Of a stretch of 64,000 bases of DNA, positions 53,868-64,000 are shown one piece after another; position 1 is the stretch's first letter, and every line of letters starts with the position of its first letter. The notes under the pieces were generated by a model. That model did no database searches, was not told the DNA's origin, and was given only the letters and a program-made list of their open reading frames with translations. The DNA is from Candidatus Woesearchaeota archaeon (GTDB taxonomy: Archaea > Nanobdellota > Nanobdellia > Woesearchaeales > UBA12501): positions 62,001 through 126,000 of the forward strand of contig JAUSFM010000003.1 of NCBI GenBank assembly GCA_030651375.1, written 5' to 3'. A program made the position numbers and the translations under genes.

Positions 53868-55178
53868 ATGGCCGGCTATGAAGATTTTGTTCATCTTGAG
53901 TATAAGCCAAAAGAGACTGACCTTCTTGTTAGCTTTCAGGTGCATGTGCCGTCATGGGAAACCGTCAAGCGCAGTGTGGGCGCAGTTGCGTCAGAAAGTT
54001 CTGTCGGAACATGGGCAAGTGTCGCTGGATTAAAATATGAGCATGTCAAAAAAGTTGCCGGACGAGTGTATGAAATAAAAAAGCATGGAAACGCCTACTG
54101 GGTAAAAATCGCGTATCCGCAAGACCATTTCGAAGCAGGCAACATGAGCCAGATTCTCGCAAGCATTGCCGGCAATGTATTCGGCATGAAAGCAGTGTCC
54201 GGCCTCCGATTGCAGGACATCCGCTGGCCAAAAAAGATTGTCAAGAGTTTTCCCGGTCCGCAGTTTGGCATTCCGGGCGTGAGAAAAATATTCAAAGAAT
54301 ACAAACGCCCCTTGATGTTGAGCGTACCGAAGCCGAAAGTGGGTATGACGGTTGCCGAGCATTGCGAAATTGGCCGGCAGATATGGAGCGGCGGGCTTGA
54401 CCTTCTGAAAGACGACGAAAATCTGACGAATCAAACATTCAACCCATTCACCAAGCGCGTGGCACTGGCGCACAAAATCAGGGAAAAAATTGAAAAGCAG
54501 ACCGGAGAAAAGAAAAGTTATCTCATCAACGTCACGTCAGGCACCTACAAAGAGATGGAAAAGCGCGTCAAGTTTGTCGCAAACCTCGGCTGGGAATATG
54601 TAATGATTGATATTATCACCGCAGGATGGAACGCTGTGCATAGCCTCCGCGAACTCTGCCAAGATTATGGCCTTGCAATTCATGCGCACCGCGCGTTTCA
54701 CGGCGCGTTTACCCGCGTGCCAACCCACGGCTTTTCAATGCTGGCAACCGCAGAAGTCGCGCGCTTGTTGGGAGTTGATAATCTTCATATTGGAACAGCA
54801 GGCGTGGGAAAACTCGTCGGCAGCAAAGAAGAAGTGCTTGAGATACAAGAGCATATCACCAAAAATACTATTGCGCCAAATCACGCAACGCATGGACTGG
54901 GGGAAAACTGGCAGAATATGCGGTCCACATTTCCCGCATCGTCAGGTGGCCTGCATCCGACCATTCTTCCACCGGTGCTTGACCGCATGGGCACGAACAT
55001 CATGCTGCAAATCGGCGGCGGCATCCACGGCCATCCGAAAGGAAGTTATGCAGGAGCGCGGGCAATGCGTGAAGCAGTTGAGGCATACATGGATGGCAGA
55101 AGCATGGAAGAAGCTGCAAAAACGTGCGTCGAACTGCGCCAGGCGCTGGAACACTTTGGATATATGCGGCCGCGGTAG
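53868..55178 (+). CDS. rbcL: Form III RuBisCO large subunit
   Basis: 436 residues. All main active-site residues are seen: K155 and K157 in VPKPKVGM, the carbamylated Lys K181 with D183 and E184 in GLDLLKDDEN, H272 and H274 in HAHRAFH, and K315 in GTAGVGKLVG. Converts ribulose 1,5-bisphosphate and CO2 to two 3-phosphoglycerate. The length and the YGLAIHAHRAF style are of archaeal form III, which works in AMP/nucleoside salvage rather than the Calvin cycle. GAGGTG precedes the ATG. No small subunit nearby. Confidence 0.95.
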   Translation: MAGYEDFVHLEYKPKETDLLVSFQVHVPSWETVKRSVGAVASESSVGTWASVAGLKYEHVKKVAGRVYEIKKHGNAYWVKIAYPQDHFEAGNMSQILASIAGNVFGMKAVSGLRLQDIRWPKKIVKSFPGPQFGIPGVRKIFKEYKRPLMLSVPKPKVGMTVAEHCEIGRQIWSGGLDLLKDDENLTNQTFNPFTKRVALAHKIREKIEKQTGEKKSYLINVTSGTYKEMEKRVKFVANLGWEYVMIDIITAGWNAVHSLRELCQDYGLAIHAHRAFHGAFTRVPTHGFSMLATAEVARLLGVDNLHIGTAGVGKLVGSKEEVLEIQEHITKNTIAPNHATHGLGENWQNMRSTFPASSGGLHPTILPPVLDRMGTNIMLQIGGGIHGHPKGSYAGARAMREAVEAYMDGRSMEEAAKTCVELRQALEHFGYMRPR

Positions 55179-55182
55179 ACGT

Positions 55183-56130
55183 TCATCCAAATATTCTTGT
55201 ATTCAAATTTTCAGCAACCAGCACAATCTTCTGCGCGTACGTCGCCGTATCTCCATTCGGCAATCGTCCGTACGGCTTAAGAAAACCGGTTGCCGACGTA
55301 CTTCCTAATCCGGCATTGTAGGCGGACCACGCTGCAAGCACGTTGCCGTTGCGCGCTTTCAAACTGTCAGCAATGTACCGCGCCATAGAAGGAACCGCAT
55401 GCGCACCGATAGTGCGTTGGTCAAAGTCATTCAAAAAAGCGCGGTCGTCTTCGTTGAAAATATCGCGACTGGAAATATTAGCTGCAAAAAAAAGTTTGAA
55501 TTCCTCTTTTGCCCGGCGTGCTGCTTCTTCAACCGCGGGAATTTCTTTTTTTTCCCGCTGCGAGCCGTTTTTTTTGTAGGCGCGCAGGGTTGCAGACAAG
55601 GATTCATACTCGCGCTGTTTTCCTGCAAGTTCAGGAAGCTGGTACGGCGACCGATAGTGCTCGGAAAGATCGCCGGCGCACACGAGATTGAATGGCTTGT
55701 CACGCGCAGTCGGCGCGATGAATTGGGCAACACCGACGGCAAGTGCAGAAGAAACTGCAAATTCATAGAACAATGACTCGACATACAAGCCGGCGACAAG
55801 AAGTGCCGGGTCAACCGGATGGATTGATTTATTTTTTTGGCAGCTTTCGACGGCAAGGGTGGTGATTTCCTCAAGCCGCGCTTCAAGCGAGTATTTCACG
55901 TCGTAAAACGGCTGTTTCCAGACGCCGAACGGCTGATTTGGCGGATGGTTTTGTTTCAAAAAATCCATTGTGGCGCTGCGCAATTTTCGTGTGTACCACC
56001 AGCCGCTGACGCCGTTGGGCGGCTCATAATTTTTTGGAAGAAGAATCGTAACCGGTGATTCTGCAACAAAATGCAGGCAGGATGCAAGCGGCAAACTGCC
56101 AAGCACAGCAAGAAAACTGCGGCGGTCCAT
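55183..56130 (-). CDS. Lytic transglycosylase-like lipoprotein, Tat-type signal
   Basis: 315 residues from the ATG at 56130, 26.5 bases from a TATA-like box. MDRRSFLAVLGSLPLASC has a twin-arginine RRSFL motif and a lipobox (LASC18). Residues 106-140 (DPALLVAGLYVESL with E118, then SALAVGVAQFIAPTA) and SAYNAGLG near 285 follow the SLT/goose-lysozyme pattern, with E118 as catalytic acid. Such enzymes cut murein glycan strands. A helical insert separates the halves. Divergent from the class A PBP gene, 90 bases away; stop is four bases from the RuBisCO stop. Confidence 0.75.
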   Translation of the reverse strand: MDRRSFLAVLGSLPLASCLHFVAESPVTILLPKNYEPPNGVSGWWYTRKLRSATMDFLKQNHPPNQPFGVWKQPFYDVKYSLEARLEEITTLAVESCQKNKSIHPVDPALLVAGLYVESLFYEFAVSSALAVGVAQFIAPTARDKPFNLVCAGDLSEHYRSPYQLPELAGKQREYESLSATLRAYKKNGSQREKKEIPAVEEAARRAKEEFKLFFAANISSRDIFNEDDRAFLNDFDQRTIGAHAVPSMARYIADSLKARNGNVLAAWSAYNAGLGSTSATGFLKPYGRLPNGDTATYAQKIVLVAENLNTRIFG

Positions 56131-56220
56131 ACTAAACAACAGGATGAGCAGTGTTATAGTTTGTTGTTGTGGAGCATGCTACAACACAGGTTTAAATTGA
56201 GAAGGGCAATGAATAAACCA
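56131..56220. promoter_or_regulatory. Divergent promoter region, transglycosylase and PBP
   Basis: Two TATA boxes in 90 bases: TTATAG at 56154-56159 (minus, for ATG 56130) and TTTAAATT at 56191-56198 (plus, for ATG 56221), each centred 26.5 bases from the start. Adjacent divergent promoters suggest joint control. Confidence 0.55.
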
Positions 56221-58449
56221 ATGCACAGCCACATTGCAGACGAGGAAATAGCTGAACGCGGAATAACTGAAACTTCAACCAAAAAAGAAAAAGGGCTGGT
56301 GCGAAGAGTTGCCACAAAAATAGGCGCGTATGTTCTTGCCGGAAGCATCGCTCTCGGCGCAGCGCTGGGCGTTGAACAGTTTGGAAGCCCGATACAGCGT
56401 TATGTGGGAAAAATAATGGTGGAGCACGAACAGGGAATTCTTGAACAAACTAATAACCGTGTCGCAAAAAAACTTGACGATATACTCGACCAGCTTAGCC
56501 CAGTACCGCTCAAAACGCTTGTACAACAGTATGCGCAGGAGCGAAGTGATGGAACAATAACACTGCTCGACCGCACCAAGACACCGTTTGCTGAACGCCC
56601 GCAGTATCAGGGAAAAGTGGTGCAGGACCGCACACGCGTAATCTGGAAATCTCTCGACGAAATTTCGCCGTATCTCGCCGCTGCAACCGTCGCGGCAGAG
56701 GACCGCCGATTTGAGCATCACGGCGCATGGGACCCTGCGGCCGCAATCAGCGCAGCAGCAGACATTGCAGCAGCAAGGGTGCAAGGGAAAAAAACATACC
56801 CCCGTGGCGCAAGCACCATAGCCATCCAGCTTGCTGATAACCTGCTCTGCCCCGCATGGAATCCACCGTACGCGTGCACGGCTGATAATAAGTTGGTGCA
56901 CAAAATGAGGGAATGGCTGCTTGCCGCAAAAATTGAGTCCGTGTCATCAAAAAAAGATATTCTTGAAACGTATTTGAACAGTGCTTATTTTGGGTATGAA
57001 CCAAGGAGCAAAGCGCATTTGGTCGGCGTTGAAGCAGCGGCACAGCATTATTTCGGCAAACAGGCAGTATCGCTTGACGCAGGAGAATCAGTTTTGCTGG
57101 TTGCGATGATAAAAAAGCCATCGCGGTATGGCACGCGGGCGTATGCAGATTTTTCACAGGGGAAATTGTCAACGGCTGCAGTAAACGGGCTTGTGCAGCG
57201 CGCGCAGTACGCAATTGAATCATTTGGTGAGATGAGCAGAAATGGAGAATTTCAACAGCCGTACTATGCAGCGATTAAACAAGACGATGTGCAGCGCATT
57301 ATCGCACAGCTTCATTATCGGAATCTGCCATTTGTGCGGCCGACGCCGGCAACGCCGCGTGAGCGCGCGTATGAATTTGAAGACGTGGTGCTTCAGCAGC
57401 TCGAAAAACTAAAATTGCCGGCGCATGGTGACGTAACTATTGAAACAACGCTTGATCCGGGGCTGCAGGATTTTTCACGCGATGTGCTGCGCCGCTCCAT
57501 TGAAAAAATACGCGCAAGCGGCGCGCCAAAGCCGGAATACCTAAACGGCTCTATCGTCGTCGTTGACACCGAAAATCAAGAACTTCTTTCCGTGGTCGGC
57601 GGATTGGGCATTGACCGCAACGATTATATCAACCGCGCCCTGCGACGCACGTCGGTTGGTTCTGGCTTTAAGCCGTTCATCACGTGGATGTATCTCGAGC
57701 AGGGCGGCCACATCACGGATACGTTCAAGGATGCGCCGAAAGTGCTCACGTACCAGTTCGCGCCGGGAAAAACAAAAACGTACCGGCCGGGAAATTTCAA
57801 GGGCCACTTCAGCTACCAGAACATCACGCTTGAGCAGGCGCTTGCCGAGTCAAAAAACACGATTTTTGCCGAAGTAAATTTCAACCTGATTCGTGATCTC
57901 GGCGCAGAAAAAATGAAACACGCGCTCAATATGCTCGGCATGGGACTTGAGCAGTACTGGCTTTCGTCGGTGCTCGGCACTGAAGTTGCGCCGCTTGATT
58001 TTGCCGGCGCGTTTTCAATATTTGCCAACGGAGGGACGGTGCATTTAAACGAGACCGGCATGGTAAACCTTGACCCGCTTAAAAAAATTGTGTACCATGA
58101 TCCGACAACCGGCGCTGAAAAAATATATCCTGAAACCGGCACCGCGTATGCAGCAATAACCCCACAGCATAGCGAAACGCTCGACCACGCATTGAGAAAA
58201 GTGGTAGTGGAAGGCACGGGAAAAAGAGCAGATATCACGGGGTATGACATTCGCGGCAAAACAGGCACGGGCCTCGCCAGCTTTATGTTTGTCGGATACG
58301 AGCCAGCGCTTGACCGGCTCGTGCTGGTGCAGTTCAGCTCTGACGAGCCTGCAGCAACCGGCCGGCTGAAATTAACGGGCGGTGAATGGGCTGCGCCGGC
58401 GGCAAAAGAAATATTCCAGTATATGATTGACCATCAGAAGCAGAGTTAG
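56221..58449 (+). CDS. Class A penicillin-binding protein (GT51 plus transpeptidase)
   Basis: 742 residues; ATG 56221 fits a leaderless message, ATG 56209 adds four. A membrane helix (about 33-52) is followed by the GT51 domain: E160 in AAEDRRFEHHG, R195-T199 in RGASTIAIQLADN (bacterial GGSTITQQ), and E249 in ILETYLNSAYFG. The transpeptidase domain has S481/K484 in VGSGFKPF (SxxK), S544-N546 (SKN) and K680-G682 (KTG). All motifs needed to polymerise lipid II-type glycan and cross-link peptides are present. Archaea normally lack murein. Composition matches neighbours, so it is settled in this genome or long acquired. Confidence 0.9.
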   Translation: MHSHIADEEIAERGITETSTKKEKGLVRRVATKIGAYVLAGSIALGAALGVEQFGSPIQRYVGKIMVEHEQGILEQTNNRVAKKLDDILDQLSPVPLKTLVQQYAQERSDGTITLLDRTKTPFAERPQYQGKVVQDRTRVIWKSLDEISPYLAAATVAAEDRRFEHHGAWDPAAAISAAADIAAARVQGKKTYPRGASTIAIQLADNLLCPAWNPPYACTADNKLVHKMREWLLAAKIESVSSKKDILETYLNSAYFGYEPRSKAHLVGVEAAAQHYFGKQAVSLDAGESVLLVAMIKKPSRYGTRAYADFSQGKLSTAAVNGLVQRAQYAIESFGEMSRNGEFQQPYYAAIKQDDVQRIIAQLHYRNLPFVRPTPATPRERAYEFEDVVLQQLEKLKLPAHGDVTIETTLDPGLQDFSRDVLRRSIEKIRASGAPKPEYLNGSIVVVDTENQELLSVVGGLGIDRNDYINRALRRTSVGSGFKPFITWMYLEQGGHITDTFKDAPKVLTYQFAPGKTKTYRPGNFKGHFSYQNITLEQALAESKNTIFAEVNFNLIRDLGAEKMKHALNMLGMGLEQYWLSSVLGTEVAPLDFAGAFSIFANGGTVHLNETGMVNLDPLKKIVYHDPTTGAEKIYPETGTAYAAITPQHSETLDHALRKVVVEGTGKRADITGYDIRGKTGTGLASFMFVGYEPALDRLVLVQFSSDEPAATGRLKLTGGEWAAPAAKEIFQYMIDHQKQS

Positions 58450-58525
58450 TTTTTGCCGTTGGTGTTTTTAGTTGTTGTTCTTGCTACACTATAAGTTTTT
58501 ATCACTGGCAAAACCACAGAAAAGA

Positions 58526-59896
58526 ATGGCACACCAAACACATCATTCTTTGATCGGGCGAATCGTCCGCTGGGGAAGTATCACCACACTGGTAGCCGGT
58601 GGCGCAGTGGGAACGTATATGCTCGTTGCAGAGACACCGTTTACCGAGAATATTTCTCTGGTGAGCAAAAGTTATGCCGCTGCAAAAATTGACACCGCGA
58701 TTGGCTGGGGGCACCGCGCGCTCACGACTGACCCTGCCGAACTTATGGACGATGTACGCAGCATGGGAGAAAAAGTTGAAAAAGTGTTAAGAGAATACCG
58801 CGGCCCGATTGCAACCGGTGAATTTGACGGCGTACTTGAAAGCATTCGCGGCATGCTTGAAGACCAGCGCACAACAATTTCAAACTACCGAACGAGCCAG
58901 GCAAACCAGATTGCAGCGGAACGAGAACTCACGCAGTGCATCATTCAAGTTGACGCTCTTTCACAATTAGCGCATGCCGTCGATAAAGCGCGCGATACAG
59001 TGCCCGGATGCACGCAAGCGCTTCAAAATTATCAGAATGTGCAAAAAGCAGCTGCGCCAGCAGGCGAATCAAAAAAATTAGGAAAGCCAACAGCGCAGCA
59101 GCTTGCGGCTGAATCAAAACGAATTCAGCAGCAGGCAGCAGGGCTTGAGCGCCTTGCATCGTGCGCAGAAACAATGGTGACTGCGTATGGCGCGTTTGAC
59201 GCGGCGCAGCAAAAACTCGAGCAGGCACAGCAAGGGAAGAATGCACACCAGCCAAAAGATATGTACGAAGCAGCATGTCTCATGAAAGGATTGGCTGTGT
59301 ATGCTCCGGTTATGGAACGTAGAGAGCTAAACGGGCTTCTTGATACGCTGACCGGCCAGATGCGTGGATTTTACGACGGAGAATCGCGCTATGCCCGCGA
59401 CCGTGACGCCGCATACCATGCGCTGAGTACGATGAATGTTGATGATGTTTCACAAGCGCGAAAAAGTATTGACGCGCGCGTTGAGGGAAGTGTGCGCATA
59501 CGCTTCTTTGTTGAAGATGTGCAGGCGCTTTCGCGCATGCCAAAACAGTATCGTGTTGAAGCGGCACGGTTTCTTGCGGAGTCAGTCTATGCCTCATCGC
59601 CTGAAGAGGGCGAACAGCTTGCGCGCATGCTTGCCCCGAAAATGTCGTCGGCAGTTGTGCGCGAGATGGCAGCTGCATTGCCAGCAGAAGAACAGCGGCG
59701 ATTGTATGGTGAGCTCGGCGCGCAACTAACGCCACCATCGACAAATACCGCGCCGTTCCAGCAGCCTCTGCAGCAACCGATGGGAAGTGCGCCGGGAAGT
59801 GCACACTATGACGCGGAAGACCGGCCAGCACAAACATACACACCACCTATTCCTGAAAAAGGATTTTTGCAAAGAGTGATTGAAAAAATATTGTAG
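58526..59896 (+). CDS. Membrane-anchored helical protein, Pro/Gln tail
   Basis: 456 residues from the ATG at 58526. One N-terminal membrane helix (about 14-34) then a helical, Ala/Gln/Arg-rich exterior or interior domain with six or so cysteines (about residues 130-275), and a C-terminal region with PLQQPMGSAPGS and a short amphipathic end PIPEKGFLQRVIEKIL. Follows the PBP by 76 bases in the same direction with its own weak TATA-like box. Not recognised; probably a partner of the PBP locus. Confidence 0.65.
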   Translation: MAHQTHHSLIGRIVRWGSITTLVAGGAVGTYMLVAETPFTENISLVSKSYAAAKIDTAIGWGHRALTTDPAELMDDVRSMGEKVEKVLREYRGPIATGEFDGVLESIRGMLEDQRTTISNYRTSQANQIAAERELTQCIIQVDALSQLAHAVDKARDTVPGCTQALQNYQNVQKAAAPAGESKKLGKPTAQQLAAESKRIQQQAAGLERLASCAETMVTAYGAFDAAQQKLEQAQQGKNAHQPKDMYEAACLMKGLAVYAPVMERRELNGLLDTLTGQMRGFYDGESRYARDRDAAYHALSTMNVDDVSQARKSIDARVEGSVRIRFFVEDVQALSRMPKQYRVEAARFLAESVYASSPEEGEQLARMLAPKMSSAVVREMAAALPAEEQRRLYGELGAQLTPPSTNTAPFQQPLQQPMGSAPGSAHYDAEDRPAQTYTPPIPEKGFLQRVIEKIL

Positions 59897-59951: not shown

Positions 59952-60683
59952 ATGAACAATCGACGATTTCATGACCAAAAAAAAGCAGGAGGATATGTAA
60001 CAATAAAGCGCGTGCTTACCACGGTAGGCGCAGCAGGATGCGTGTACATCGGCACATGGCTCTCGAGCCCGACGCTGAACGAATCACTCGAACGGGTAAC
60101 AGCAGCGGCAACAGAAAGTGGCGAAGCAAGCGCCGCCGTTGGATATCGAGTTATGGACACGGCACTGCAGAGCTCAAAACAAGATGTGATAAAAGTGTTG
60201 GGGGACGTGCATGCAAAAGCGCCTGAAGCGTTTCAGCGATTTGTCAATCTAGCGTATGCAGTCAACGCGCTCAATGGCAGCACGCCCGGCCAGCTTGACC
60301 CGACACGATTGGGAAATGTGGTATTGGGTGAAGCGTCGATTGGCCAGCGTGATGGCACGATTTCTGTTGAATATCAACAGCCCGGCAGCGCGCCGCAAAG
60401 TTACGCAGTCCGCACATTTAATGGAGACAACGGGCTTGAGCTCGTGCTGCAGCGCACCGGACTTGCGCCTATTTCAGTTGGCCCGCCTGCACTGACCGTG
60501 CCAAATGCACCAATGTCGCCGGGAGTTGTGTACCAACAACCGCAGCAGCCTGCACCGTTGTCAAGTGCACCGGCACCGTATCACGCGGCGGCCGGAAGTG
60601 GAGCAACGTATGCGCCAGCACCATCGGTATCAGCAGCACCGATTCCAAGCATCGGCAGCTTGTTCAAAACAGTGACGCACTAA
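59952..60683 (+). CDS. Membrane-anchored protein with Pro/Ala/Gln-rich tail
   Basis: 243 residues, GGAGGGAG before the ATG. A basic start, one hydrophobic segment (about 19-38), about 120 residues of mixed domain, then a Pro/Ala/Gln/Ser-rich tail ending PIPSIGSLFKTVTH. The end shares PIPxxGxL with the preceding protein. The stop overlaps the next start (TAATG). Confidence 0.65.
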   Translation: MNNRRFHDQKKAGGYVTIKRVLTTVGAAGCVYIGTWLSSPTLNESLERVTAAATESGEASAAVGYRVMDTALQSSKQDVIKVLGDVHAKAPEAFQRFVNLAYAVNALNGSTPGQLDPTRLGNVVLGEASIGQRDGTISVEYQQPGSAPQSYAVRTFNGDNGLELVLQRTGLAPISVGPPALTVPNAPMSPGVVYQQPQQPAPLSSAPAPYHAAAGSGATYAPAPSVSAAPIPSIGSLFKTVTH

Positions 60684-61000
60684 TGAGCACCATGAACACC
60701 GCACCAATCGCAGAGACGCTGAATGCAACCGAACAGATACGTTCCACACTGTGGAACGCGCTGCAGCTCGAAGAGCCACGCTACACCATGGCTGACCGCG
60801 TTATGCTCGCGGCAGCATCGGTATTTGGCGAACGCGCATATCGGCGGATGGAACACGCAGTTAACCAGCAGCATGTTCCGGGTGTCATCGCTGACCTCGA
60901 CCGGTTTGCGCATGATTTGAAGCGGGAACTGGGCAATGCGTACCGAGGAGGGAAAGAGGGAAGTGTTCAGTGCGAGACAGCGCGAGTTTATATCGCTTGA
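60683..61000 (+). CDS. Hypothetical helical protein, 105 residues
   Basis: Starts by one-base overlap with the preceding stop, so translationally coupled. Soluble, helical, Arg/Glu/Ala-rich; no family recognised. Position suggests a role with the membrane-anchored proteins. Confidence 0.6.
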   Translation: MSTMNTAPIAETLNATEQIRSTLWNALQLEEPRYTMADRVMLAAASVFGERAYRRMEHAVNQQHVPGVIADLDRFAHDLKRELGNAYRGGKEGSVQCETARVYIA

Positions 61001-61142: not shown

Positions 61143-62423
61143 ATGGCAGACAAAGATGGTAACGGAAAGGAAGGAACAGACCATTCTATTGATGAAAAAA
61201 ATTGGGAGCAAATAGAGAAAGAGCTCCGCGCTGAAGGGGCATCAGGGACAGGAACAAATGGTGCTTATACAACGACGACACAGCAGCAAAACGGCTCAAA
61301 TGGAACAGGCACGAAACGCGGCGGACTTGAAGGAGCAGTAAATGCACCTGACCTTGCACAGATGTACCATGTAAACGGCGCAGGAAATGGATCACAGAAT
61401 CCGCTCACCGCAAAAGCAAAAGAATTGGGACTGCTTGAGGGCATTAACCTTCCCGGCACGCAGAGAGAATTAGATACTATGCAGAAACAGGCAGAAGAAA
61501 CACCAAATTTTCTTGAGCAAAAAATGAAGTTCCTCGCTGATGTAAAGGTAGAAGATTATTACGGCACACTGGATGGGGCGCTGATCGGCGTTGCCCGAAG
61601 AATGGGAACGAAAGTATATGGAACAGTGCAAGGCTGGGTTGATAACCGGGTGAAAAAAGGACTTAAGGATATGGTTCGCTCAGACCTTGAAGAGCAGGCA
61701 ACAAAATTACGCGCAAATGTTGAGCGATATGAAAAGATTTCTGGCGAGCTAAGCAAGGTTGGCGAGAAATATTCGCAACGGAGCATTGTTGGAAATGCCA
61801 TGCTACAACAGGAAACCTACCCAAAAATAGCGGAGGGATATAAAGAGATAGAGCGGCTCAACAAAGATCTCGCAGCAGCAACACAATCGGGAGATTTCAC
61901 GAAGGCCCATGCAGCACGCATGGAAGGGAACCGAAAAGAAAAAGAAGTTGCTGAACAAGAAAACTTTTATGAACGCCTTGATTTCCGCGTGAAGGCAGCA
62001 AGGACAGCAACCACCGCAGTGGAGGGGCTCATCGAGCGTGCTACCAGGTATTCAAGCATGACGCAGCGCTACCTTATGGCGGTTGAAGAAAAAATCTCAA
62101 TGTTAGGAATGGTCGACGAGATTGCCGGCATCCAGTTTGAAATAACGCCCGCGAATCTTGAGAACCTCGACTTTCTGTTGAGCGACGCAGGAAACATGAT
62201 CGGTGCAAGGGGCTGTGAAATCAATCACGCCATTCAAGCAGGTGGAGACCCGACACGGGGACCAGACTTGAAGCCGGACTACCTCGCAAGCGACGCAGAA
62301 GCCATGCGAACTGAAACGTACCGAAGTGATAGAAGGGCACGCATTGAGCGGCTCCACTCGGAACGCGTCAGCCAGTTGAATGAAGCGGCGGCAGCGTACG
62401 AGACTCCACCTCCATCGGCGTGA
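61143..62423 (+). CDS. Soluble coiled-coil protein, 426 residues
   Basis: GGAGGG lies before the ATG. The first 90 residues are disordered (Gly/Asn/Thr/Gln). Residues about 110-340 are mostly helical with coiled-coil character, including MVRSDLEEQATKLRANVERY and LNKDLAAATQSGDF. No signal peptide or membrane helix. The last residues are ETPPPSA. No family recognised; a scaffold between the membrane proteins and the AAA+ ATPase is possible. Confidence 0.65.
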   Translation: MADKDGNGKEGTDHSIDEKNWEQIEKELRAEGASGTGTNGAYTTTTQQQNGSNGTGTKRGGLEGAVNAPDLAQMYHVNGAGNGSQNPLTAKAKELGLLEGINLPGTQRELDTMQKQAEETPNFLEQKMKFLADVKVEDYYGTLDGALIGVARRMGTKVYGTVQGWVDNRVKKGLKDMVRSDLEEQATKLRANVERYEKISGELSKVGEKYSQRSIVGNAMLQQETYPKIAEGYKEIERLNKDLAAATQSGDFTKAHAARMEGNRKEKEVAEQENFYERLDFRVKAARTATTAVEGLIERATRYSSMTQRYLMAVEEKISMLGMVDEIAGIQFEITPANLENLDFLLSDAGNMIGARGCEINHAIQAGGDPTRGPDLKPDYLASDAEAMRTETYRSDRRARIERLHSERVSQLNEAAAAYETPPPSA

Positions 62424-62494: not shown

Positions 62495-64000
62495 ATGATG
62501 CCAGATGTGATACAAATTGACGGACAAGCGCTGCGCGAAGGCAGGAAACAGGCAAAGTCACGCATGCAGCTGTGGGGCTTTACAACACCACTACAGTATC
62601 ATGTCGGTGGGAGAAACACAAAAGAAGATTTAGAAAAAGTAGTCACCAGCGCCGAACAAACATATGGGTTATATGAAGCAGTGATGAAAACACTGTTACC
62701 ACTGAATCCATTGGGAAAAAGTGATGAGGTCATAGCAAAAAAAGCGCTTAATTTGTATGCATTATATGTTGGGTGCAGTGAAGGGCTCGAGGCGCTGGCG
62801 AATGGGCAGGATAGTGGCGCACATATTGAACGGCAAGCGAGTATCCCGATCGGCGAATTCGGATTTGGTATTGGAAAACCTGATGAATACCGCCCTGCGC
62901 TTGATAACCTGTTGAAGTATCACACAAAATTATTTAAAACTGGCACACCGGCACTGGCGCTGCAGAGAGAATTTTTGGCAGTGATGAAAAAAACAATTGA
63001 GCGTGAAATGCAGCAGCAGGCGTATGAAACAGTCACGGGGCAGCTTGCGGGAGTAACGCTCGCTGTTAACGAAAGAATGTACCGCGGCTTTGAAAATGGT
63101 ATGCAGCCATCAGTCGAGGCAGCTCAGTCCCCTGAAATCGTTCAGCGCCTTTCGGTGAGCAAAAATCCGGGTGAAATCGTCGTCATTGGCAATGATGAGG
63201 CGCTGGGTGAGATGAGCGGGATGGTAAAACAGCTTTTGCTGTATGATCCGGCATCCCAAACAAATGTCGCATTTGAGGGAGTGAAGCCGGTTGCGACGCT
63301 GTTGTTCGGCCCGCCCGGCACGGGAAAAACAACTATCATCAAGCGGTTGTATGCTGAAGCACAGACAGCAGCTACGCATAAGGGCGTGCCTGTGCAATGG
63401 GTTAATTTTGATAACAGCTTTAAGGACATGTACCACGGCAATGATGTCAAAAATTTGATGCGGCGATTCGACCAGCTCAAGGATCCTCGAAAGATAAGCA
63501 TTGGCTCGGTCGAGGATGTCGACAGCGTGCTGCAGGCGAGAAGCGCGCATGACGCGTCGCACATCGAATCGCAGGCGATTAATGTGTTTCTCAATGAGCT
63601 TGATGGGCTGCTGACGGAGTACCGCGGAAATTATATTCTGATTTTTACGACGAATCATGTTGAAAAAATGGATAGCGCGCTCATGAACAGGATAACGCAG
63701 CATTTTGAAATCCGCGGGCCGCAAACACCCGTTGAATACGCACAGTTGTTCCGGTATAAGATGGGCGATGCACTGCCGCGGGTCCAAATGGATAAAGATG
63801 GCTGGCAGGAATTTTGCAGGCGCTGCGTGGAGTACAGCTTTTCAGGCCGGGACATTGACAAAATAGCTGCGGTGGCAAGAAAGTATGTGGTTAACGCAGA
63901 CGGCATAACGCCAGCGATACAAACGCTTCCACCAAATGAACAGCGCACAGCACTCGCCAAAATGCGAAGGCCGGTAGACGCAGGGTATATTTTGCACGAG
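62495..64000 (+). CDS. AAA+ ATPase, C-terminus outside window
   Basis: The frame starts at ATG 62495 (GAGG ten bases upstream; ATG 62498 also possible) and is open to the edge, at least 502 residues. An N-terminal region of about 220 helical residues precedes GPPGTGKTT (Walker A, about residue 271), a modified Walker B (SIGSVEDVD), sensor 1 (LIFTTN), MNRITQHF with the Arg finger position, and sensor 2-like FSGRDIDKI. It resembles classic AAA remodelling ATPases (FtsH/Cdc48/katanin type) but the N-terminal region is unfamiliar. Last visible gene of the PBP locus. Confidence 0.8.
   Translation, partial: MMPDVIQIDGQALREGRKQAKSRMQLWGFTTPLQYHVGGRNTKEDLEKVVTSAEQTYGLYEAVMKTLLPLNPLGKSDEVIAKKALNLYALYVGCSEGLEALANGQDSGAHIERQASIPIGEFGFGIGKPDEYRPALDNLLKYHTKLFKTGTPALALQREFLAVMKKTIEREMQQQAYETVTGQLAGVTLAVNERMYRGFENGMQPSVEAAQSPEIVQRLSVSKNPGEIVVIGNDEALGEMSGMVKQLLLYDPASQTNVAFEGVKPVATLLFGPPGTGKTTIIKRLYAEAQTAATHKGVPVQWVNFDNSFKDMYHGNDVKNLMRRFDQLKDPRKISIGSVEDVDSVLQARSAHDASHIESQAINVFLNELDGLLTEYRGNYILIFTTNHVEKMDSALMNRITQHFEIRGPQTPVEYAQLFRYKMGDALPRVQMDKDGWQEFCRRCVEYSFSGRDIDKIAAVARKYVVNADGITPAIQTLPPNEQRTALAKMRRPVDAGYILHE

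Follow-up and report, generated by a model that had tools for sequence, protein, structure and literature searches.

Textbooks describe Archaea as lacking both murein and penicillin-binding proteins (PBPs). An earlier note, made from the DNA alone, had nevertheless described a complete class A PBP on an archaeal contig. Is this gene truly archaeal, and on what would its product act? We analysed a stretch of 64,000 nucleotides (the window; positions 62001-126000 of contig C3) from the genome of a Candidatus Woesearchaeota archaeon (G000; 1.297 Mb, 23 contigs, 100% complete, 0.91% contaminated).

The PBP gene and its archaeal setting

The PBP lies in an open reading frame of 792 codons (56071..58449, forward strand). 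The ATG at 56209 is the likely start, favoured by the upstream sequence, and yields a protein of 746 residues; the start given earlier, 56221, is indeed an in-frame ATG but lies four codons 3' of the likelier one. The frame is intact and both Pfam domains score far above their cut-offs, which bears out the description of a complete class A-type PBP. The features of the locus are as follows.

53868..55178, forward: RuBisCO large subunit (PF00016, E 2.1e-81), form III according to the earlier note and its context; a neighbour of archaeal context, outside the wall module.
55183..56139, reverse: SLT lytic transglycosylase lipoprotein, divergent from the PBP gene (PF01464, E 6.3e-9, 35.9 bits against a cut-off of 21.3), with, by eye, an AYNAG motif, a twin-arginine signal (MDRRSFLAVLGSLPLASC) and a candidate catalytic E121 within a VESLF motif.
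56209..58449, forward: class A-type PBP with predicted N-terminal membrane anchor, GT51 domain and transpeptidase domain (Pfam, alignment, AlphaFold2/Foldseek, TIGR02074 score).
56320..56379, forward: predicted N-terminal transmembrane anchor, approximately residues 34-53 of the 742-residue form (hydropathy maximum; model confidence is low there).
56626..57141, forward: GT51 transglycosylase domain (PF00912 Transgly, E 3.1e-38, 131.4 bits against a Pfam cut-off of 27; residue table), with E160 and E231 intact, Asp206 in place of Lys/Arg in motif 2 and an insertion between motifs 2 and 3.
57547..58416, forward: DD-transpeptidase domain (PF00905 Transpeptidase, E 2.5e-19, 70.1 bits against a Pfam cut-off of 22.1; residue table), with SxxK, SxN and KTG intact.
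58472..59896, forward: anchored coiled-coil-like protein of no family, 22 bp downstream of the PBP (Pfam, hydropathy).
59952..60683, forward: small N-terminally anchored protein of no family (ORF list, Pfam, hydropathy).
60683..61000, forward: small protein of no family (ORF list, Pfam).
61143..62423, forward: coiled-coil-like protein of no family (ORF list, Pfam).
62495..64000, forward: AAA ATPase of 578 residues, extending beyond the window end (PF00004, 4.3e-19).

AlphaFold2, with 34 sequences as input, modelled the PBP at a pLDDT of 79.9 and a pTM of 0.72, with most of the transpeptidase domain above 85. Foldseek matched this model to E. coli PBP1b, S. aureus PBP2 and A. baumannii PBP1a (E-values of about 1e-27 to 1e-21), and among solved structures its nearest relatives are class A PBPs that carry the annotation PBP1A. 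Whole-chain TM scores reach only 0.4-0.5; a different relative placement of the two domains and of the low-confidence N-terminus would lead to such values. The overall fold, as modelled, is that of a class A PBP. The protein shares with the bacterial class A PBPs (PBP1a/1b/2; TIGR02074, PF00912 with PF00905) their domain order, fold, E160/E231 and the SxxK, SxN and KTG motifs, and its hydropathy suggests that it may have an N-terminal anchor as they do. It differs from them in the Asp at the motif-2 Lys/Arg position, in its archaeal owner, in the lack of any lipid II pathway found, and in its score against TIGR02074, the PBP1A subfamily, of 257.2 bits, under the curated cut-off of 508.75. The homologue in another genome of the phylum (L057, from G004) passes this cut-off with 582.2 bits.

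Archaeal genes lie on either side of the PBP on the 262-kb contig C3: L16p/L10e and MetRS upstream, an Rpb11-type RNA polymerase subunit and NDK downstream, where an archaeal EF-2-like gene was also recognised by eye. Among the contig neighbours listed in the earlier note, RuBisCO (Pfam) and uL16 were confirmed, and eS1 was recognised by eye only; the archaeal-style promoters that it described were likewise inspected by eye alone. That note had also considered a bacterial contaminant joined at 55-56 kb; neither GC content nor tetranucleotide composition changes abruptly there (z at most 1). Of 371 genomes of the phylum, 15 contain the PBP family as counted by PF00912, and one of these, G004, is a single contig. 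Several members of the family adjoin archaeal translation genes, such as L7Ae, S28e and EF-2 (G214) or EF-1-alpha (G058), all neighbours assigned by eye. A bin of 23 contigs leaves some room for a binning or assembly error that joined a bacterial stretch to an archaeal contig, but the length of the contig, its archaeal flanks, its unbroken composition and the presence of the family in 14 further genomes, one of them a single contig, make such an error barely credible. Contamination was rejected in view of contig context, composition and recurrence across genomes.

Relatives, gene order and catalytic residues

The best named relative of the PBP comes from another Candidatus Woesearchaeota genome (L101, JACRKI010000156.1, 3e-54); the remaining named matches are all bacterial, mostly at 25-30% identity and spread over many phyla. 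No mobile source is visible, the best matches in plasmid and phage records being PBPs at about 26-29% identity. The IQ-TREE phylogeny comprised 37 rows, with the very long branches L064, L065, L066 and L070 omitted; similarity to the query decided which bacterial rows entered it, and neither CPR nor Firmicutes are among them. The window PBP, L101 and L067 form a clade (support 100/100) to which none of the sampled bacteria belongs. This makes contamination or a recent transfer unlikely, and the nesting within a single recent bacterial clade that the earlier note had named as a counter-indication was not seen among the sampled bacteria. Eight DPANN PBPs stand opposite all the bacteria and two further DPANN rows (branch 96/86), and the data do not reject a grouping of the ten DPANN rows (p-AU 0.133).

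L067 belongs to a genome (G088) from another family of Woesearchaeales. Both there and in the genome analysed here, a stretch of about 12 kb holds the PBP together with FAD oxidoreductase and TrmB-like genes. The intervening genes of the two loci have a like architecture (anchored proteins, coiled coil, AAA) and no detectable similarity, save a weak one between the window AAA ATPase and a P-loop protein at the matching place (Z 5.0). Both L067 and L101 also have a membrane-anchored protein directly after the PBP, common to the two of them (Z 30) and with no detectable similarity to the window protein at 58472..59896. A conserved operon with L067 was considered and rejected: only the PBP, FAD oxidoreductase and TrmB genes are clearly homologous, the AAA gene is weakly so, and the small anchored proteins show no homology. 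A separate stretch (L055:8522-17881), which directly follows the PBP cluster, encodes a 915-residue protein with a protein-kinase match (PF00069) and, next to it, proteins that by eye resemble another kinase and a PP2C-type phosphatase.

We compared residues in an alignment of 34 PBPs (the window PBP, L067, L101 and 31 others). Invariant in all 34 are E160, D161, S198, Q203, S481, K484, S544, N546 and K680-T681-G682-T683. In the window PBP, E160-D161 stand in GT51 motif 1, S481-K484 form SxxK, S544-N546 SxN and K680-G682 KTG, in agreement with the earlier assignment of E160, S481/K484, S544 and K680. The second GT51 glutamate had been placed at E249, a column that varies freely among bacteria; it is E231 of motif 3 (K-x-x-E) that is conserved as an acid (E or D in 34 of 34 rows). 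Together with this misassignment, two substitutions overturn the statement that every core motif is intact. Position 206 of motif 2 (Q-x-x-K/R) is K or R in 31 of the 31 other PBPs and Asp in the window PBP, L067 and L101 alone, while the motif-3 Arg position 227, variable and mostly Arg in bacteria, is His in the window PBP and His or Trp across its clade. The motif-2 Lys of GT51 enzymes aids binding of the lipid II pyrophosphate; a basic residue there is usual, yet no requirement of the Pfam family. Judged from the residues, D206 would lower the claim of normal polymerase activity and not that of homology, and GT51 polymerase activity is plausible but uncertain. By its motifs, the transpeptidase site is complete. 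The DPANN PBPs are only about 20-30% identical, and the invariance of the transpeptidase triad and of the GT51 acids despite this divergence implies selection for catalysis.

A recently acquired bacterial gene with little or no function would fit the patchy occurrence of the PBP, found in 15 of 371 genomes and in none of the three other genomes of its own family. The deep archaeal clade, the catalytic residues conserved at 20-30% identity, the gene order partly common to another family (PBP, then AAA, then FAD oxidoreductase and TrmB) and the lack of a close bacterial relative make this highly improbable. The PBP gene is confirmed as real, intact, archaeal and long-resident.

Lipid II supply and wall-cutting enzymes

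Does the organism make the substrate of a class A PBP? The lipid II pathway was tested family by family for MurB, MurC-F, MraY, MurG, MurJ and SEDS, a set outside which MurA and Ddl lay, using profile searches that each found matches in at least 10 control genomes. No MurB, MurC-F, MraY/WecA, MurG or SEDS was found above cut-off in the genome, and MurJ gave a sub-cut-off match only, which was not counted. The sole Mur_ligase_M match (377.6 bits) is FolC and was rejected as a Mur ligase; the Mur_ligase_M matches of G214 and G090 are FolC-like as well. Since none of the searched lipid II enzymes was found in a 100%-complete genome, the organism very probably cannot make lipid II. De novo murein synthesis by the archaeon was rejected on the same grounds, and the earlier suggestion that the PBP builds a murein-like layer is, for the archaeon by itself, not supported. 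Most PBP-bearing genomes have no mur genes. Methanogens make an archaeal wall polymer, pseudomurein, through Mur-like ligases and MraY-like enzymes (PMC11915815, whose main text mentions neither penicillin nor transpeptidase), whereas the genome studied here has no MraY family match and no Mur ligase besides FolC.

The archaeon might instead take up bacterial lipid II or muropeptides and use them for a murein-like layer around itself. The predicted anchoring of the PBP in the archaeon's own membrane would suit such a layer, as would the MurA-MurB pairs or almost complete set of mur genes in relatives of the same order, but the genome has no lipid II enzyme or above-cut-off MurJ among those searched and no lipid II uptake is known, and we consider this scenario improbable.

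Wall-cutting enzymes are encoded in the genome. Three SLT matches exceed the cut-off and one lies below it; of the three, one is the neighbour of the PBP and another an apparent paralogue with a similar signal. There are also two Amidase_2 matches, one of them about 83 kb downstream on C3 in a protein of 2263 residues (L186:1076-7867; G000:C3:201076-207867) that has a signal-like N-terminus and carries Amidase_2 near its C-terminal end. Close to the L101 PBP lies an Amidase_3 gene instead of an SLT gene. SLT matches occur in 13 of 15 PBP-positive and 155 of 356 PBP-negative genomes (Fisher p about 0.001, ignoring kinship), an association that may partly reflect kinship or lifestyle. Co-occurrence of Amidase_2 with the PBP was examined and dismissed, as G000 is the sole Amidase_2 holder among the PBP-positive genomes.

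An orphan PBP with a wall-cutting neighbour and no lipid II of its own would most likely work on the wall of a bacterial neighbour. Action on a bacterial partner's wall, one of the roles raised in the earlier note, is thus favoured by the SLT neighbour gene and by the absence of the lipid II enzymes searched for. We propose, at what we judge to be an even chance, that this PBP, predicted to be anchored in the membrane at the archaeal cell surface, has as its substrate the peptidoglycan or lipid II of a bacterial host or partner, cutting and joining together with the SLT protein. The partner bacterium would supply the peptidoglycan or lipid II. Where the cells touch, the divergent SLT lipoprotein would open glycan strands and the PBP would join or seal peptide, perhaps glycan too; the outcome would be attachment or entry without the partner bursting. 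This proposal draws on both PBP domains and the fold, the conserved catalytic residues and the archaeal residence seen in contig and tree. It also draws on the head-to-head SLT gene, the Amidase_3 gene beside the L101 PBP, the SLT and Amidase_2 genes of the genome, the distribution of SLT among PBP-positive and PBP-negative genomes, and the lipid II enzymes not found. Against it, no host is known, no route has been demonstrated from an anchor in the archaeal membrane to lipid II in the membrane of another cell, GT51 is possibly weakened or altered, the SLT-PBP association is uncorrected for phylogeny and Amidase_2 does not co-occur.

D206 and H227 may weaken or alter GT51 activity and leave the transpeptidase alone at work. 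In this strongest rival, GT51 would serve for binding, its enzymatic activity lost or altered, and a DD-transpeptidase or carboxypeptidase would tie the archaeon to the stem peptides of its partner, or trim them, which sidesteps the gap of reaching lipid II in another cell. The Asp confined to the window PBP, L067 and L101 and the intact transpeptidase motifs speak for such a role, but GT51 retains E160, E231, S198, Q203 and K228 and still scores 131 bits with PF00912, and we regard the role as rather unlikely. The clade-specific changes, which surround the expected donor site, and the mur genes missing from most PBP genomes would also agree with an enzyme that polymerises or crosslinks an archaeal surface polymer other than murein, built on another lipid carrier. 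Such an enzyme is distinctly unlikely, given that the motifs typical of D-Ala-D-Ala transpeptidases are invariant and that peptidoglycan hydrolase genes adjoin.

Joint cutting and joining of a bacterial partner's wall agrees with the repair of wall defects by class A PBPs of bacteria (PMC7002073) and with two publications in which bacterial walls are taken to be the target of lytic transglycosylases from Woesearchaeota (PMC8204110, PMC9723730). The large lytic transglycosylases of Woesearchaeota and Pacearchaeota (fam00969, PMC8204110; GH23, PMC9723730) come from the same lineage and have the same presumed target, bacterial peptidoglycan, and SLT genes are present here too. Those proteins cut the wall, whereas the window PBP is, by its sequence, of a synthase and crosslinking enzyme type; the word penicillin is absent from the main text of both papers. 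Archaeal peptidoglycan hydrolases that kill bacteria (PMC12352652) are likewise archaeal and aimed at bacterial walls, but are hydrolases and not PBPs. A parallel in way of working may be the reported remodelling of prey peptidoglycan by enzymes of Bdellovibrio (PMC3276566), where a small attacker edits its partner's wall with osmotic stability kept. Bdellovibrio is a bacterium with its own murein, and its enzymes are different ones. In the literature searched, with subscription papers and preprints outside its scope, archaeal murein hydrolases are described and no DPANN PBP was found. The protein appears to be an archaeal PBP of a known enzyme class and of putative function, carried by a symbiont-like archaeon. 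A long-resident archaeal PBP family without a lipid II supply points to bacterial partners of uncultured DPANN archaea, and offers a testable handle on the interaction through penicillin labelling, lipid II assays and imaging.

Murein-type genes elsewhere in Woesearchaeales

In another genome of Woesearchaeales, G330, two contigs together encode most of a lipid II pathway, and both include archaeal genes as well (TruD, a YGR210-like GTPase, a KaiC-type ATPase and topoisomerase VI A and B). One contig carries MurA, MurB, MurG, MraY, MurF, a FemAB-like gene, MurC, a monofunctional GT51 and a flippase-type gene (L058/L059, G330:C2:8417-21206), and the second carries MurE (L016/L071, G330:C7:27031-28473). 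MurA, MurB, MurF and MurE exceed their NCBIfam cut-offs; MurC, MraY and MurG lie below the equivalog cut-offs, with those families still their best match. MurD, PF00905 and SEDS were searched for in G330 and not found.

Adjacent murA-murB genes are present in five genomes of Woesearchaeales family f26 (L194, 8536-11488; L195, 5862-7857; L196, 9320-11409; L197, 8648-10731; L198, 7543-9650), and the pair adjoins exosome and proteasome-type genes, by eye, in G090 and G214. These pairs suggest UDP-MurNAc synthesis without Mur ligases. Woesearchaeales may form a graded set, from orphan PBPs that edit bacterial walls, as in the window, through MurA-MurB pairs to G330 with nearly the whole pathway among archaeal genes, so that some members make or remodel true murein-type material; we put this forward tentatively, as somewhat short of an even bet.

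Two further genomes of the order contain PF00905 matches without GT51 (L083, G134:C80:3722-4342; L094, G121:C7:64146-64448), perhaps class B PBPs, relatives of beta-lactamases or contaminants. The MurB portion of L194 lies inside a longer open reading frame, fused to a glycosyltransferase-like stretch.
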